Below, one piece after another: positions 6,314-34,449 of a DNA stretch of 64,000 nt; the first letter of the stretch is position 1; every line of letters starts with the position of its first letter. The translations under genes and the position numbers were made by a program. Source of the DNA: Armatimonadota bacterium (GTDB taxonomy: Bacteria > Armatimonadota > Fimbriimonadia > Fimbriimonadales > Fimbriimonadaceae); NCBI GenBank assembly GCA_017303935.1, contig JAFLBD010000003.1, positions 62,001 to 126,000 of the forward strand, in the 5' to 3' direction. The notes below the pieces were generated by a model. The model was given only the letters and a program-made list of their open reading frames with translations, was not told the origin of the DNA and searched no databases.

Positions 6314-6699
6314 CTGAATTTCGCCTTTGTTTGCGCATTGCATCCCTTGATTATCCAGTGCAGAAAGATCAAGAGTCCGTGCGGGCCTGCCAAGACATTC
6401 ACTGCTGTGAGTGTCGTTACCCGATTAAAGTTCTTCCGCGATAGAATCAACTTTCTTGTCCAAAGGAGCAATGCTGAATGAAAGAATTGAGTCGCGGTGA
6501 CGCAAATCAGTACCGACTTCATCAAGGCAAGTCCAAGGATGTTCTTATCCGAATTGAGATAGTTAGACTCAAAACTTGGCATCTCTTGAATCAGGAACAT
6601 CAGCACCGATGATCCTATGATCAAGGAGAGCGCTGCTCCGGCCAAGTGACTGCGCTCAGAGATTTTTAGGAAACTATCTTCTGGCGACGACTGTTGCAT
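6310..6699 (-). CDS. Small integral membrane protein, function unknown
   Basis: 129 residues from ATG 6699 (MQQSSPED). Three hydrophobic segments are visible: LAGAALSLIIGSSVLMFLI, a second around LALMKSVLICVTATQFFHSA, and a C-terminal one around LLIFLHWIIKGC. No catalytic motif or family was recognised. A longer upstream frame exists but would run into msrA on the opposite strand. Its stop overlaps the end of the S66 gene by 4 bases (convergent), and its start lies 25 bases from the msrA start (divergent). The lack of promoter room keeps confidence moderate. Confidence 0.5.
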   Translation of the reverse strand: MQQSSPEDSFLKISERSHLAGAALSLIIGSSVLMFLIQEMPSFESNYLNSDKNILGLALMKSVLICVTATQFFHSALLLWTRKLILSRKNFNRVTTLTAVNVLAGPHGLLIFLHWIIKGCNAQTKAKFS

Positions 6700-20611: not shown

Positions 20612-20733
20612 AACACTATCCTTCTCTCTGATTCTAGACGTTAATAAAATTGCGGGTGATTTTTGGAACGAATCGAGCGAAAGATTTGTATATTGCTAAT
20701 AGAATCACATTTCTTTAGTGTAGGAGGCTCAAT

Positions 20734-23343
20734 ATGCGATTTGACAAGATGACAATCAAAACTCAGGATGCGTTCAGGGACGCTCAAGCGATGGCGGTGC
20801 AGATGGAACACCTGGCCATTGATACCGAGCATGTGTTACTCGCGCTTCTGAACCAGGATGGCGGCATCACGTTGCCGATGCTTCAGCTTCTGGGGACAGA
20901 TTCGGGCGCGATTTCTACTGAACTTCAATCTGACCTTAACTCTCGGTCCAAGATTTCTGGCTCCGCCGCAACCTATGGGACGAGCATGACTGGACGTCTC
21001 CAACAAGTCTTCAACGACTCGTTCAACCTTGCCGACCAACTGCACGATGAGATCGTTTCGACAGAACATTTGCTCATCGCCATTGCCAAGGAGCCTGGCT
21101 TTAGCGGCACCTTGCTGAGGCGGCTCGGGGTCACCGACCAAGCACTCCTCAAGGCTCTGGAATCAGTGCGTGGAGGTCAGCGTGCAACCGACCCAAATGC
21201 TGAATCACGTTATCAGGCGCTTGAAAAGTACGGGGTGGACGTCACTGCAAAGGCTCGGCAGGGCAAGCTAGACCCAGTCATCGGTCGCGACGAAGAGATT
21301 CGGCGCGTCATCCAAGTTCTCAGTCGCCGGACGAAGAACAATCCCGTTCTGATCGGCGAGCCAGGAGTTGGAAAGACGGCGGTTGTTGAAGGGCTGGCCC
21401 AACGGGTCGTCAATAACGAAGTCCCGACCAGTCTGCAAGGCAAGCGCGTCATTAGCCTCGATCTCGGCGCGATGGTTGCTGGCGCAAAGTACCACGGAGA
21501 GTTCGAGGAGCGGCTCAAGGCCGTACTTGACGAGATCAAAAAGCACGAGGGCGAGATCATCCTCTTCATCGATGAATTGCACACGCTCGTCGGTGCAGGC
21601 AAGACCAGCGGAGCGCTGGACGCGGCGAACATGCTCAAGCCAATGCTGGCTCGGGGCGAACTCCGGTGCGTGGGCGCGACGACGCTAAACGAATATCGGC
21701 AATACATCGAAAAGGATGCTGCGCTTGAAAGGCGATTCCAAACCGTTCTGGTGGACGAACCGACGGTGGAAGAGACAATCTCGATTCTGCGAGGATTAAA
21801 GGAGCGGTACGAGATTCACCACCGAGTTCGAGTGACTGATTCGGCACTAGTGGCCGCTGCGACTTTGAGTAATCGCTACATCACCGATCGTTTCTTGCCA
21901 GACAAAGCAATCGACCTGATCGACGAAGCGGCGAGCAAGTTGAAGATCGAAATCGAGAGCGTCCCGACCGAAATCGACGAGATCCAACGGCAAGTCATCC
22001 AGTTGGAGATCGAACAGCAAGCTCTGAAGAAGGAGACCGACGAAGCAAGCAAGGATCGCTTGGTCAATATCGAATCCAAGCTCGCCGATCTTAGGGAGCA
22101 GCTAAGCCGCGAATCCGCCAAATGGAAATCGGAAAAAGAACGCATCGATAAGCTCAACGAGATCAAGTCTGAGCTGGAAAATGCAAAGTCGGAGCTCGAG
22201 CGGGCTCAACGTGAAGTTGATTTGAGCCGGGCCAGCGAATTGCAATATGGCGTGATACCTAAGTTGCAACAGCGCTTTGATGCTGCACAAACCGAACTTC
22301 ATGAGCTTCAAGCCGATGGCAAGATGCTTAAGGAAGAGGTTGAGGCCGATGAGATCGCTGAGGTGATCAGCAAGTGGACCGGAATTCCGGTCAGCAAGTT
22401 GCTCCAAGGCGAAATGGGCAAATTGCTGGTTCTAGAAGAAGAGCTAGGCAAACGCGTTGTAGGCCAAGGCGAGGCACTTCGCGCAGTGTCGGACGCTGTG
22501 CGGCGATCGCGCTCTGGGATATCGGACCCGAACCGCCCTATCGGCAGCTTCTTGTTCCTTGGGCCAACTGGCGTGGGCAAAACAGAGACCGCAAAGGCGC
22601 TGGCTTCGAATCTATTCAACGATGAAAAGGCGATGGTACGGATCGATATGAGCGAATATGGCGAGCGTCATTCCGTGAGCCGGTTGATCGGTGCGCCTCC
22701 TGGATATGTCGGTTATGAAGAAGGCGGCCAGCTCACTGAAGTCGTGCGGCGTCGACCTTATTGCGTCGTGCTTCTCGACGAGATCGAAAAGGCTCATCCC
22801 GAAGTGTTCAATGTGCTACTCCAGGTTCTCGACGATGGACGGTTGACGGACGGTCAAGGCCGAACGGTGAACTTCAAGAACACGGTGATCATCATCACGA
22901 GTAATTTGGGCTCGCAACATTACGGCGATATGGTGTTAGACCGCCAGAAGTTCGAGGACATTCGCCGAGAAGTCTTGGATGAAGTCCGACACTTCTTCCG
23001 ACCGGAGTTCTTGAACCGATTAGACGAACTGGTAGTGTTCCAACCACTCGGACCAAAGGAAATAAAGGACATTGTGTTGATCCAGCTGCAAAGCCTGAAA
23101 TCCAGGCTTGCCGAGCGAAAGATCGGATTGGATTTGAGCGACTCCGCGCTCTCGCATTTAGCAAGCGTCGGATTCGATCCTGTGTTTGGCGCGCGTCCGA
23201 TTCGCCGCGCGATTGAGCGTGAGATTCTCAATCCGCTATCGCAGAAGCTGATCAGTGGCGAGGTCAAGGATGGAGATCACGTGCTTCTCGAGCTAGAGAA
23301 CGGATCGCTTGAATTCCGCCCACAAGTAAAAAGTAACTCCTAA
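20734..23343 (+). CDS. clpB: ATP-dependent disaggregase ClpB
   Basis: 869 residues, full length for ClpB, preceded by AGGAGG. It is a hexameric AAA+ chaperone that rescues aggregated proteins with DnaK/DnaJ. The N-terminal Clp-N repeats cover residues 1-150. The first AAA+ module has Walker A GEPGVGKT (207-214) and [13 protein letters not shown] long coiled-coil M domain (about 400-530, Glu/Lys/Leu-rich) follows, which separates ClpB from ClpA/ClpC. The second AAA+ module has Walker A GPTGVGKT (610-617) and GYVGYEEGG. No HAIR or CIRCE operator was seen upstream, unlike dnaJ in this window. Confidence 0.97.
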
Positions 23344-32084: not shown

Positions 32085-32216
32085 ATGCCCACACAAAAAC
32101 CAATGCCGGTGTCACCAGCCACAGAAGTTGCTCAGGAAAAACTAGAAAAGCTCATGATCGATGCTTGGCGACGTGAGCACGAAGAATCGGAAGAAGAAGA
32201 ATCTTCTAACGACTGA
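32085..32216 (+). CDS. Possible 43-residue acidic protein
   Basis: A frame from ATG 32085 encodes a small hydrophilic protein: a Pro-rich start (MPTQKPMPVSP), a helical middle (ATEVAQEKLEKLMIDAWRR) and an acidic tail rich in Glu and Ser. The ribosome site is weak. It follows ppk1 by 92 bases and its end overlaps the convergent S51 peptidase gene by 11 bases. It may be a real microprotein co-transcribed with ppk1, but codon evidence is thin. Confidence 0.35.
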   Translation: MPTQKPMPVSPATEVAQEKLEKLMIDAWRREHEESEEEESSND

Positions 32217-32880
32217 GCCATTCTGGCTTGCCTTCAGACTCGATCAACTTCCCTTCGCGGATGACGATCCACTCGCCTTCGCTTATCCCGACGCCTCGTT
32301 CCACGGGCCAATGATCTAGCGCAAATTTTAAGCGGACTTGGCGGTCACGATTGCGATAGTGCGTGTCCACCAGAAACGGCACCAAACCAATGCCTTCCGA
32401 TCGCAGTGGCAGATTGTCATCTGTCATCCCTCCGATCATCGGATTGCTGAGCACCATCGCTCCAGCGCTCGTTCCGAAGAAGCAAACTCCATTATCGAGC
32501 GCTTGCCGAAACAGCTTTTGCGCAAATTGGGCGCCTAGAGCGGCAACAAGCCTCTTCTGATCCCCTCCGGGCATCCAAACGCCCTTGGCGTTCAGCACGA
32601 GGTGAGCGAGCTTTCTATTGGTTGCGGGGCCAGGTTGATCCCCGAACGCGATGACGTTTTTCGCTCCGTTCTCTTTAAGGAACTGGGTTGACCCGTCAGC
32701 GGATTTCTGCGGCTCAGCTGACGAATAGCCCAGAACGATGATCTTCTCGTCGGCTCCTCCGATCGCTCGAAGGAACCGAGCGACCACCTTTGGACTGGTC
32801 TTGCCTCCACCGGCAAGGATAATTGTGCCGGGTTCTGGCGTTGCGCTGACCATTGCTGTAAGCAGCAGGCTAGAGAGCAT
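32206..32880 (-). CDS. Exported cyanophycinase-like peptidase (S51)
   Basis: 224 residues with a short signal peptide (MLSSLLLTAMVSATPEPG). The S51 fold starts TIILAGGGKTSPKVVARFL. The nucleophile Ser138 is in FFGTSAGAMVLSNPMIGG, and the candidate His is in FLVDTHYRNRDRQVRL, both typical of cyanophycinase (rather than aspartyl dipeptidase PepE). Cyanophycinases cut beta-Asp-Arg bonds, but secreted members in bacteria that lack cyanophycin have unknown substrates. No cyanophycin synthetase is in the window. Confidence 0.85.
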   Translation of the reverse strand: MLSSLLLTAMVSATPEPGTIILAGGGKTSPKVVARFLRAIGGADEKIIVLGYSSAEPQKSADGSTQFLKENGAKNVIAFGDQPGPATNRKLAHLVLNAKGVWMPGGDQKRLVAALGAQFAQKLFRQALDNGVCFFGTSAGAMVLSNPMIGGMTDDNLPLRSEGIGLVPFLVDTHYRNRDRQVRLKFALDHWPVERGVGISEGEWIVIREGKLIESEGKPEWLSR

Positions 32881-32883
32881 GGA

Positions 32884-33285
32884 TCAAATCTCGGGTCTGC
32901 GCCATTCGAGACGCAAGGAAGGAAGCAACTGCTCGTCTTTACGAATCGGCAAATTGCTGTTCATCAAGAGATTTTGAATTCGGCGCTCGGCCTCAGATCG
33001 AAACTCCTCAAACTGAGATTCCATGTCCTCGCGCATCTTATCCATGTCTTCCAGGAGCCGGAGGATGATCTCCACTCCCGCCAGATTGACACCGATTTCT
33101 TGCGTCAGCCGCTGAATTCGCTGGACTCTTTGAATGTCCACCATGCTATACAAGCGATTCTTTTGGCCGACTCGGCTCGGGTTGACCAGGCCGAGCCTTT
33201 CGTATTGCCGCAAGGTTTGCGGATGGACATTGCACAGACGGCTTGCAACACCGATCATGTACAGCGGCTCTCGGTCGGCGCTCAC
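32884..33285 (-). CDS. hspR: Heat-shock repressor HspR (MerR family)
   Basis: 133 residues from GTG, overlapping dnaJ by four bases. The MerR helix-turn-helix is YMIGVASRLCNVHPQTLRQY, followed by the wing ERLGLVNPSRVGQKNRLYS. The C-terminal half is a long helix (EMEDM-like, residues 75-115) for dimerisation. This N-terminal pattern with NVHPQTLRQYE and the position directly after dnaJ are those of HspR in Actinobacteria, Deinococcus and others. It should repress the dnaJ operon by binding HAIR sites; one is present upstream of dnaJ. Confidence 0.88.
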   Translation of the reverse strand: MSADREPLYMIGVASRLCNVHPQTLRQYERLGLVNPSRVGQKNRLYSMVDIQRVQRIQRLTQEIGVNLAGVEIILRLLEDMDKMREDMESQFEEFRSEAERRIQNLLMNSNLPIRKDEQLLPSLRLEWRRPEI

Positions 33286-34331
33286 GCCTTGACCTCCGCT
33301 TGTGCCATCTGTTCGAACAACTCGCGCTGTTCTGGAGTGAGATTTTTGGGCAATGCAATCTTGAGTTTCACAAACAGATCACCTCTCTGATTAGAATTCA
33401 ATTTCGTCATTCCTTGATTCGCTAGCCTGAGCGTTTGGCCAGGTTGCGATCCCTCGTTAATCTTCATCGTGAGTGTCCCGCGGAGTGTCGGAACTCGTAC
33501 TTCCCCGCCCAAGACAGCAGTCGTCAGGCTAACTGGCACTTCGGTTTCTAGATCGTCACCCTTTCTTTCGAACTGAAAGTGCTTTTCGGCTTTGACCACA
33601 ACGTAAAGGTCGCCCGCGCGGCCATTTGCGCCGACCGATCCTCGGCCAGGTACCCTGAGCTTCCTTCCTTCCGGAATCCCGGCGGGAATCTTCACCTCAA
33701 CCCGTTTGTTGCTGAGCACGACGCCGTCGCCGCTGCAGGTCGGGCATCGTTCCAGGGTGGATTTTCCGGTGCCGCCACAACCTTCACAGGGTTGTGACAT
33801 GCCGAACATTCCGCGCTGGGCTCCCGAACCTTGGCAAACGGGGCAAGTTCTCGAAGACTTCAGCCGGACGAATCCTGTTCCGTCGCAAGACTTGCAACTA
33901 TCTTGAACTTGGTAGCTGAGCGTGCGGCTGGTGCCTTTGTCGATTTCTTCGAGCGGCACAATGATCTCTTTGGTGAGGTCTTTGGCTTCGACACCTTTGG
34001 GCCTACTCCCTTCTGCTGGCGCGGTATGAAAGAATTGCTCGAAGATCGAGCCAATGCCACCACCGCCGAAGTCGAAATTGACTCCGCCAAAGTCGCCTCC
34101 GCCAGACATATTCTCGTAATTCTCGCCAAAACGGTCGTACGCTTTGCGCTTTTCAGGATCGCTGAGCACTTCATTTGCTTCGCTGATCTCCTTGAATTTG
34201 GCTTCGGCGGCCTTATCCCCTGGGTTCACATCAGGATGGTATTTGCGTGCAAGCTTTCGATACGCTGATTTGATTGTCTTATCATCAGCGGACCGGCTTA
34301 CGCCCAACACCTTGTAAAAGTCCTTTGCCAC
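33282..34331 (-). CDS. dnaJ: Chaperone DnaJ (Hsp40)
   Basis: 349 residues, preceded by AGGAG. The J domain (1-70) contains the HPD tripeptide in KYHPDVNPGD. A short Gly/Phe region follows (GGGDFGGVNFDFGGGGIG). Four CxxCxGxG zinc motifs are intact: CKSCDGTG, CPVCQGSG, CEGCGGTG and CPTCSGDG. The C-terminal substrate-binding beta domains end at KVRIALPKN-like sequence. It stimulates DnaK and works with ClpB. There is no dnaK or grpE beside it; it forms a two-gene operon with hspR. Confidence 0.96.
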   Translation of the reverse strand: MAKDFYKVLGVSRSADDKTIKSAYRKLARKYHPDVNPGDKAAEAKFKEISEANEVLSDPEKRKAYDRFGENYENMSGGGDFGGVNFDFGGGGIGSIFEQFFHTAPAEGSRPKGVEAKDLTKEIIVPLEEIDKGTSRTLSYQVQDSCKSCDGTGFVRLKSSRTCPVCQGSGAQRGMFGMSQPCEGCGGTGKSTLERCPTCSGDGVVLSNKRVEVKIPAGIPEGRKLRVPGRGSVGANGRAGDLYVVVKAEKHFQFERKGDDLETEVPVSLTTAVLGGEVRVPTLRGTLTMKINEGSQPGQTLRLANQGMTKLNSNQRGDLFVKLKIALPKNLTPEQRELFEQMAQAEVKA

Positions 34332-34353
34332 GTTATGCTCCTACACTCAATAC

Positions 34354-34374
34354 CATGAGTATATAACGCTCAAG
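34354..34374. promoter_or_regulatory. HAIR-like HspR operator upstream of dnaJ
   Basis: CATGAGT-N7-GCTCAAG matches 12 of 14 fixed bases of the HAIR inverted repeat CTTGAGT-N7-ACTCAAG with exact 7-base spacing. It lies 22 bases before the dnaJ ATG and covers the A/T-rich stretch TATATA likely to contain the -10. Supports autorepression of dnaJ-hspR. Confidence 0.72.
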
Positions 34375-34388
34375 TCGGGCGATTGGTT

Positions 34389-34428
34389 TCAAAACAAGAG
34401 TGCCCCGGAGAATTTTTCTCCGAGGCAC
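34389..34428 (-). terminator. Terminator of rpoBC
   Basis: On the minus strand GTGCCTCGGAGAA and TTCTCCGGGGCAC form a 13-bp stem followed by TCTTGTTTT, 22 bases after the rpoC stop. Confidence 0.85.
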
Positions 34429-34449
34429 CTGTAGAGAGGAAATTCTCTC

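Follow-up and report, generated by a model that had tools for sequence, protein, structure and literature searches.

HspR has been published for Helicobacter, Campylobacter and Deinococcus as well as for Streptomyces, where its regulon comprises dnaK, clpB and lon (PMC2687793, PMC6888292 and PMC7464140, as far as their accessible text goes). The HAIR consensus CTTGAGT-N7-ACTCAAG is the HspR site, and in Campylobacter and Helicobacter hspR is paired with a J-domain gene (cbpA), with HAIR-like sites upstream (PMC7464140, accessible text). In Streptomyces coelicolor the HspR regulon consists of the dnaK operon, clpB and lon, and groES is under a separate repressor, HrcA (PMC2687793, accessible text). 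In Corynebacterium glutamicum the ECF factor SigH, HspR and HrcA act on heat-shock genes (PMC3489674, accessible text), and the combination of ECF, HspR and HrcA control is already in print for other phyla. In Deinococcus radiodurans, Sig1 is described, in the accessible part of the literature, as required for the heat induction of DnaKJ. For an HspR/HAIR regulon of the Armatimonadota no report was found in the openly accessible literature by title or opening abstract; the accessible part of PMC7448276 has nothing on it, and the text of the Fimbriimonas genome paper contains no word starting with heat, HspR or chaperone. An earlier note on the present DNA had predicted HspR autoregulation of dnaJ-hspR outside Actinobacteria; the last part of this holds for the locus described here, but with the published HspR proteins of Helicobacter, Campylobacter and Deinococcus, known to us from partial texts, it is not in itself new.

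The window, i.e. the whole 64-kb stretch of a Fimbriimonadaceae genome that was analysed, carries on its minus strand dnaJ (33282..34331), which starts with GTG and encodes a protein of 349 aa with a zinc-finger domain, and hspR (32884..33285), which overlaps dnaJ by 4 bp and encodes a protein of 133 aa. DnaJ passed TIGR02349 (382.5, cut-off 377.2). HspR has a MerR-type HTH at its N terminus (PF13411, residues 9-76, 1e-15) and passed the NCBIfam equivalog NF047375 with 109.8 bits (cut-off 105; 110.2 bits in the genome search), so that the operon partner of dnaJ, called HspR-like in the earlier note, now passes an equivalog cut-off. The arrangement of hspR with a J-domain gene and a HAIR-like site before the unit is like that of cbpA-hspR in Campylobacter and Helicobacter. 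A hairpin resembling an intrinsic terminator, with a 14-pair stem and identified by consensus match only, follows rpoC (34399..34429, minus strand); its position between rpoC and dnaJ suggests that dnaJ-hspR requires a promoter of its own.

The HAIR-like repeat, CTTGAGCGTTATATACTCATG, is located at 34354..34374 on the minus strand. It matches the consensus used here, CTTGAGT-N7-ACTCAAG, in 12 of the 14 arm bases that were scored, with the exact N7 spacing and a gap of 22 bases to the GTG of dnaJ (34331); coordinates, match, spacing and gap were all correct on recheck. A third half-site, TTGAG (34346..34350, minus strand), lies 3 bp downstream. Read along the minus strand, a GAAAC-N17-CGTT pair overlapping CTTGAGCGTTATATACTCATG is followed by GTA, TTGAG, a ribosome-site-like GGAG stretch and the GTG of dnaJ. 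Judged from sequence and conservation, the repeat is very probably where the heat-shock repressor HspR binds.

The closest relatives of this HspR were found in Fimbriimonadaceae and other Armatimonadota. From 80 HspR loci kept, 51 (L046-L096) were treated as Armatimonadota by their label or their rank among the matches, two of them being labelled only "bacterium", and the remaining 29 (L097-L125) as Campylobacterota, one of them labelled "Proteobacteria". The 51 Armatimonadota loci, 30 further relatives and the window gave 82 loci; in five no J gene was found (L016, L025, L037, L066 and L081), and removal of 11 duplicates from the other 77 left 66 unique loci. J genes were detected without requiring a zinc finger, so J proteins lacking it are included. 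In this set, in which the linkage of HspR and HAIR exists by construction since the loci were collected via their HspR, and in which relatives are not independent samples, an in-register HAIR (at least 10/14, 125-140 nt before the HPD codon) was present at dnaJ/cbpA-hspR in 54 of the 66 unique Armatimonadota loci. Across these 54 loci the HAIR arms reached up to 2 bits of information, against only 0-0.16 bit in columns -75 to -17, and each column of the third half-site (+24..+28) was conserved in 44-53 loci. Seven of the 12 loci without an in-register HAIR belong to relatives outside the family but within the order (L023, L029, L031, L035, L036, L038 and L042); among the four of these whose genomes were searched for dnaK, the gene adjoins hspR in L036, L038 and L042, and in L035 the two genes are on different contigs. 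In L091, dnaK is directly upstream of dnaJ and no HAIR was found before dnaJ. In L044, L059, L076 and L082 a 10-12/14 site is present, placed at a different distance. Among the Campylobacterota-type loci, the J gene could be read in 27 of 29, and the best site in each of these had a raw score of 10-12/14.

Further sites were found before other chaperone genes. The earlier note had stated that clpB in the same window has no HAIR site; this is wrong, as a HAIR-like operator, CTTTAGTGTAGGAGGCTCAAT, with 11/14 matches is present at 20713..20733 on the plus strand, where it contains a ribosome-site-like GGAGG stretch and touches the ATG of clpB (20734..23343, plus strand, 869 aa, TIGR03346 with 1340 bits). 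Of 30 clpB loci, 28 were readable; L156, which has an 11/14 site, and L173 were left out as their start motif was not found. The best site scored at least 11 in 17 of the 28, 10 in seven and fewer in four, and several of the seven scores of 10/14 were equalled in 12-25 of 200 shuffles. For dnaK, which is absent from the dnaJ-hspR locus as the earlier note had observed, the gene was found elsewhere in the genome (C1:736641) with a HAIR-like site of its own, TCTTAGTGTAGAGCACTCAAG, at C1:736574-736594. Like that of clpB, this site is degenerate, both matching in 11/14; by a weight matrix of the relatives it scored 14.1 bits, which is inside the range of shuffled-window maxima (10.3-16.8 bits). 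Among 30 dnaK loci the best site scored at least 11 in 28 and 10 in two; for the latter two, 18 and 20 of 200 shuffles did equally well. Before hsp20, HAIR sites of at least 10 were present in 10 of 26 loci, one of them perfect; in the genome under study hsp20 gave no match at E<=1e-12.

The check for HAIR sites proposed in the earlier note for dnaK, grpE and lon thus had a divided outcome: upstream of grpE, lon and also groES (26 loci each) the best scores were 7-10, the same as in shuffles. For lon, one copy per genome was examined, and most genomes have two. Two ECF rows (L232 and the L235/L236 fragments) were left out of this upstream test. The three genes were set aside as HspR targets for lack of support in these loci. 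Like S. coelicolor, as described in the accessible text, the genome under study combines an HspR-type repressor, HAIR, dnaK and clpB as predicted targets and probably separate control of groES; unlike S. coelicolor, it has dnaK and dnaJ-hspR apart, and the lon copies examined lack HAIR. The likeness to D. radiodurans lies in a non-actinobacterial HspR with HAIR sites whose targets, according to the part of the literature accessible, include dnaK, dnaJ, clpB and hsp20; the difference concerns grpE and lonB, both reported as targets in D. radiodurans, whereas no HAIR above chance was found here before grpE or lon.

The CIRCE consensus is TTAGCACTC-N9-GAGTGCTAA. A CIRCE score of at least 14/18 was found upstream of groES in 25 of 26 loci, compared with at most 12 in the other gene sets, which points to HrcA as the probable regulator of groES. 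In C. jejuni the gro promoter, too, is bound by HspR, whereas groES here carries CIRCE and shows no HAIR above chance. A CIRCE-like repeat was seen within 200 bases upstream of groES in the genome under study (L307).

A scan of 41 genomes with at most one mismatch gave 30 HAIR places in 20 genomes; the reversed control gave 35 and was compared by count only. By coordinates, 13 of the 30 were placed just before dnaK, dnaJ, clpB or hsp20, and 10 more were inspected individually; four of these precede dnaK, hsp20, hsp20 and an ECF gene, and six are inside ORFs. Altogether 17 of the 30 places precede dnaK (6), dnaJ (4), clpB (3), hsp20 (3) or an ECF sigma gene (1), and the three perfect sites precede dnaJ, dnaJ and hsp20. 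A predicted regulon of dnaK, dnaJ-hspR and clpB, with some hsp20, is therefore well supported. The earlier note had named the lack of HAIR sites elsewhere and the lack of conservation in close relatives as what would speak against an operator; sites were found before dnaK and clpB, the dnaJ site is kept in register as described above, and the reading as a HAIR-type operator now has stronger support than that note could draw on.

The note had also supposed that the regulon may be divided, and dnaK, clpB and dnaJ-hspR are separate units. Of the 14 genomes from the order's other families that were searched for both genes, 13 have dnaK next to hspR; in G048 the two are on different contigs, and the hspR match of G043 is fragmentary. 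The two genes are neighbours in none of the 20 Fimbriimonadaceae genomes with a dnaK match, where "different contig" in drafts is weak evidence and the clear cases are the genome under study, G008, G011, G014 and G021. From this difference the dnaK-dnaJ-hspR operon of the sister families appears to have been broken up in the Fimbriimonadaceae, which would be why the regulon is divided. Where dnaJ is separated from dnaK, it is preceded by HAIR; the loci in which dnaK was seen upstream of it lack the site. The family thus offers a clean example of operators following the split of an operon.

ECF sigma factors recognise a promoter class with a GGAAC or GAAAC -35 element, a spacer of 16-18 nt and a -10 element like CGTT or CGTA. 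Such a pair precedes dnaJ, with GAAAC at 34386..34390 and, 17 nt after it, CGTT at 34365..34368 inside the HAIR (both minus strand). Of the 54 in-register loci, 22 have GRAAC at precisely this offset, compared with 0.53 on average for any one offset, and a GT at +7/+8 is conserved in 48 and 51 of the 54 loci though it lies outside the HAIR arms. Before clpB, GGAAC (20665..20669) is followed after 17 nt by TGTA (20687..20690, plus strand), a motif match with a weaker -10 than CGTT. GRAAC-N17-CGTT was found before dnaJ in 17/66, dnaK in 14/30, clpB in 7/28 and hsp20 in 3/26 loci (shuffled means 0.2, 0.05, 0.07 and 0.03), before grpE, lon and groES in 0/26 each and before the ECF genes of the genome under study in 1/22. 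A looser form was found in 29/66 dnaJ, 19/30 dnaK, 18/28 clpB and 4/26 lon loci (shuffled means 0.4-0.9). HAIR loci without GRAAC-N16-18-YGTW in range numbered 30/59 for dnaJ, 14/30 for dnaK and 7/24 for clpB. In sequence, the recurrent promoter before dnaJ, dnaK and clpB looks like the ECF type. This resembles C. glutamicum, known to us from partial text, in having ECF-like promoters plus HspR plus a putative HrcA; the phylum is another one. In several dnaK promoters of relatives, GGTANNAT between GGAAC and CGTT was noticed, like an overlapping sigma-70 -10.

The overlap of the -35/-10 pair with the dnaJ HAIR raises the question of whether the conserved block is a promoter only, of the ECF or sigma-70 type, with an incidental likeness to HAIR. 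A TATACT within the repeat is also like a sigma-70 -10, but a sigma-70 scan at dnaJ gave no match on the minus strand, and a sigma-70 promoter for dnaJ was rejected on this ground. Against a promoter alone stands the register of HAIR relative to the promoter, which differs between genes: counted from the HAIR start, the -10 is at +6 in 24 dnaJ loci, mostly at -5 to -14 at dnaK and mostly at -23 to -27 at clpB. Furthermore, the promoter of the same kind before the ECF candidate C1:338829 is kept in 17 of 23 loci (16 with TGTT), and this ECF-like promoter occurs there without HAIR above chance, except in L374 (11/14). We regard a promoter without an operator as very unlikely.

That the sites serve another MerR-type protein or a different repressor is less likely still, with hardly any probability left to it. 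One other MerR-like match in the genome is weak (37.7 bits, C1:17988); the dnaJ-linked protein alone passed the HspR cut-off, and the motif is that published as the consensus for HspR (PMC7464140, accessible text).

For the HspR operator proposed here, counts are of little help. With at most three mismatches, six HAIR sites were found in the window against a shuffled mean of 2.58, and 9 of 100 shuffles reached six; the dnaJ site is the sole one with two mismatches. In the 2.56-Mb genome, 11 sites with at most two mismatches compare with ~7.3 expected, so that by count alone the dnaJ HAIR is no rarer than chance, and a reversed control pattern was commoner than HAIR (231 vs 102 at up to three mismatches). 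The raw genome count was therefore discarded as an uninformative test, and the dnaJ site was accepted as beyond chance because of its place and its in-register conservation. Ten of the 11 genome sites are within ORFs of at least 100 aa, the dnaJ site being the exception. With a weight matrix built from the best consensus matches of relatives only, excluding the genome under study, the dnaJ site ranked first in the window (27.6 bits) and the clpB site second (18.6 bits), compared with the maxima of 20 shuffled windows given above. A functionless chance match, for which the near-expected genome count could be cited, is the least credible reading, given ~0.0003 sites expected with at most two mismatches in the 118-bp rpoC-dnaJ gap, the in-register conservation and the first rank by a matrix made without the genome itself. 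Two HAIR-like matches 67 bp apart (window 6486-6573), upstream of an msrA-like gene, are inside a small reverse ORF and were set aside as probable chance.

In Streptomyces, DnaK is the co-repressor of HspR and is titrated by unfolded protein. Sig1 of Deinococcus is an ECF factor. In C. glutamicum heat-shock genes are reportedly controlled by an ECF sigma factor, HspR and HrcA together, going by the title of Ehira 2009. From the observed sites, their conservation and gene specificity, the operon layout and the recurrent ECF-like promoter, we infer HspR binding, repression, a DnaK step and the action of an ECF sigma factor, and consider the following very likely as a whole. HspR would bind the dnaJ HAIR, perhaps also the third half-site, and thereby cover the -10 of the ECF-type promoter, keeping its own operon dnaJ-hspR off in unstressed cells; dnaK and clpB would be repressed through HAIR sites at or just after their promoters. 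Under heat stress active HspR would be lost and all three units released, by analogy with Streptomyces through titration of the DnaK co-repressor by unfolded protein, and an ECF sigma factor would probably drive their transcription. For a more elaborate version the chances appear evenly balanced: a three-part Fimbriimonadaceae circuit with an ECF on-switch for dnaK, dnaJ-hspR and clpB, an HspR veto placed at the -10 for dnaJ, just downstream of the promoter for dnaK and at the ribosome site for clpB, HrcA for groES, a dnaJ-hspR operator-promoter newly composed after the operon break-up and, in at least one relative (L348), feedback via an HspR-gated ECF gene.

For the little-studied phylum Armatimonadota, on whose heat-shock regulation no paper was found in the openly accessible literature, this gives a concrete, testable regulon. 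It suggests that the heat-shock response of Fimbriimonadaceae uses a known kind of switch, distributed over several operons, and that control by ECF sigma factor, HspR and HrcA recurs beyond Actinobacteria and Deinococcus.

The attempt to single out one ECF factor failed, since two ECF candidates of the genome under study both carry the same promoter kind: besides C1:338829, this applies to C2:718606, for which 15 of 30 retrieved loci were looked at, the genome's own among them, and CGTT was seen in five and TGTT in two. In a relative, a HAIR of 13/14 together with GGAAC-N17-CGTT was observed before an ECF sigma gene (L348:1501-1521) that by eye is similar to one of these two candidates, which suggests HspR control of the sigma factor in that relative. 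Among 23 other loci of this ECF gene a possible HAIR was seen in one only (L374, 11/14), so that such control would not be general.

In 27 of the 66 unique loci, the J protein next to hspR lacks the C..C.G.G zinc-finger pattern and is CbpA-like (L052, L054, L055, L057, L059 and L060 among them); that of the genome under study has the pattern. Three bases after hspR follows a gene like those of peptidase S51 or cyanophycinase (32206-32880, minus strand), which did not reach the NCBIfam cyanophycinase cut-off; it may share a transcript with dnaJ-hspR.
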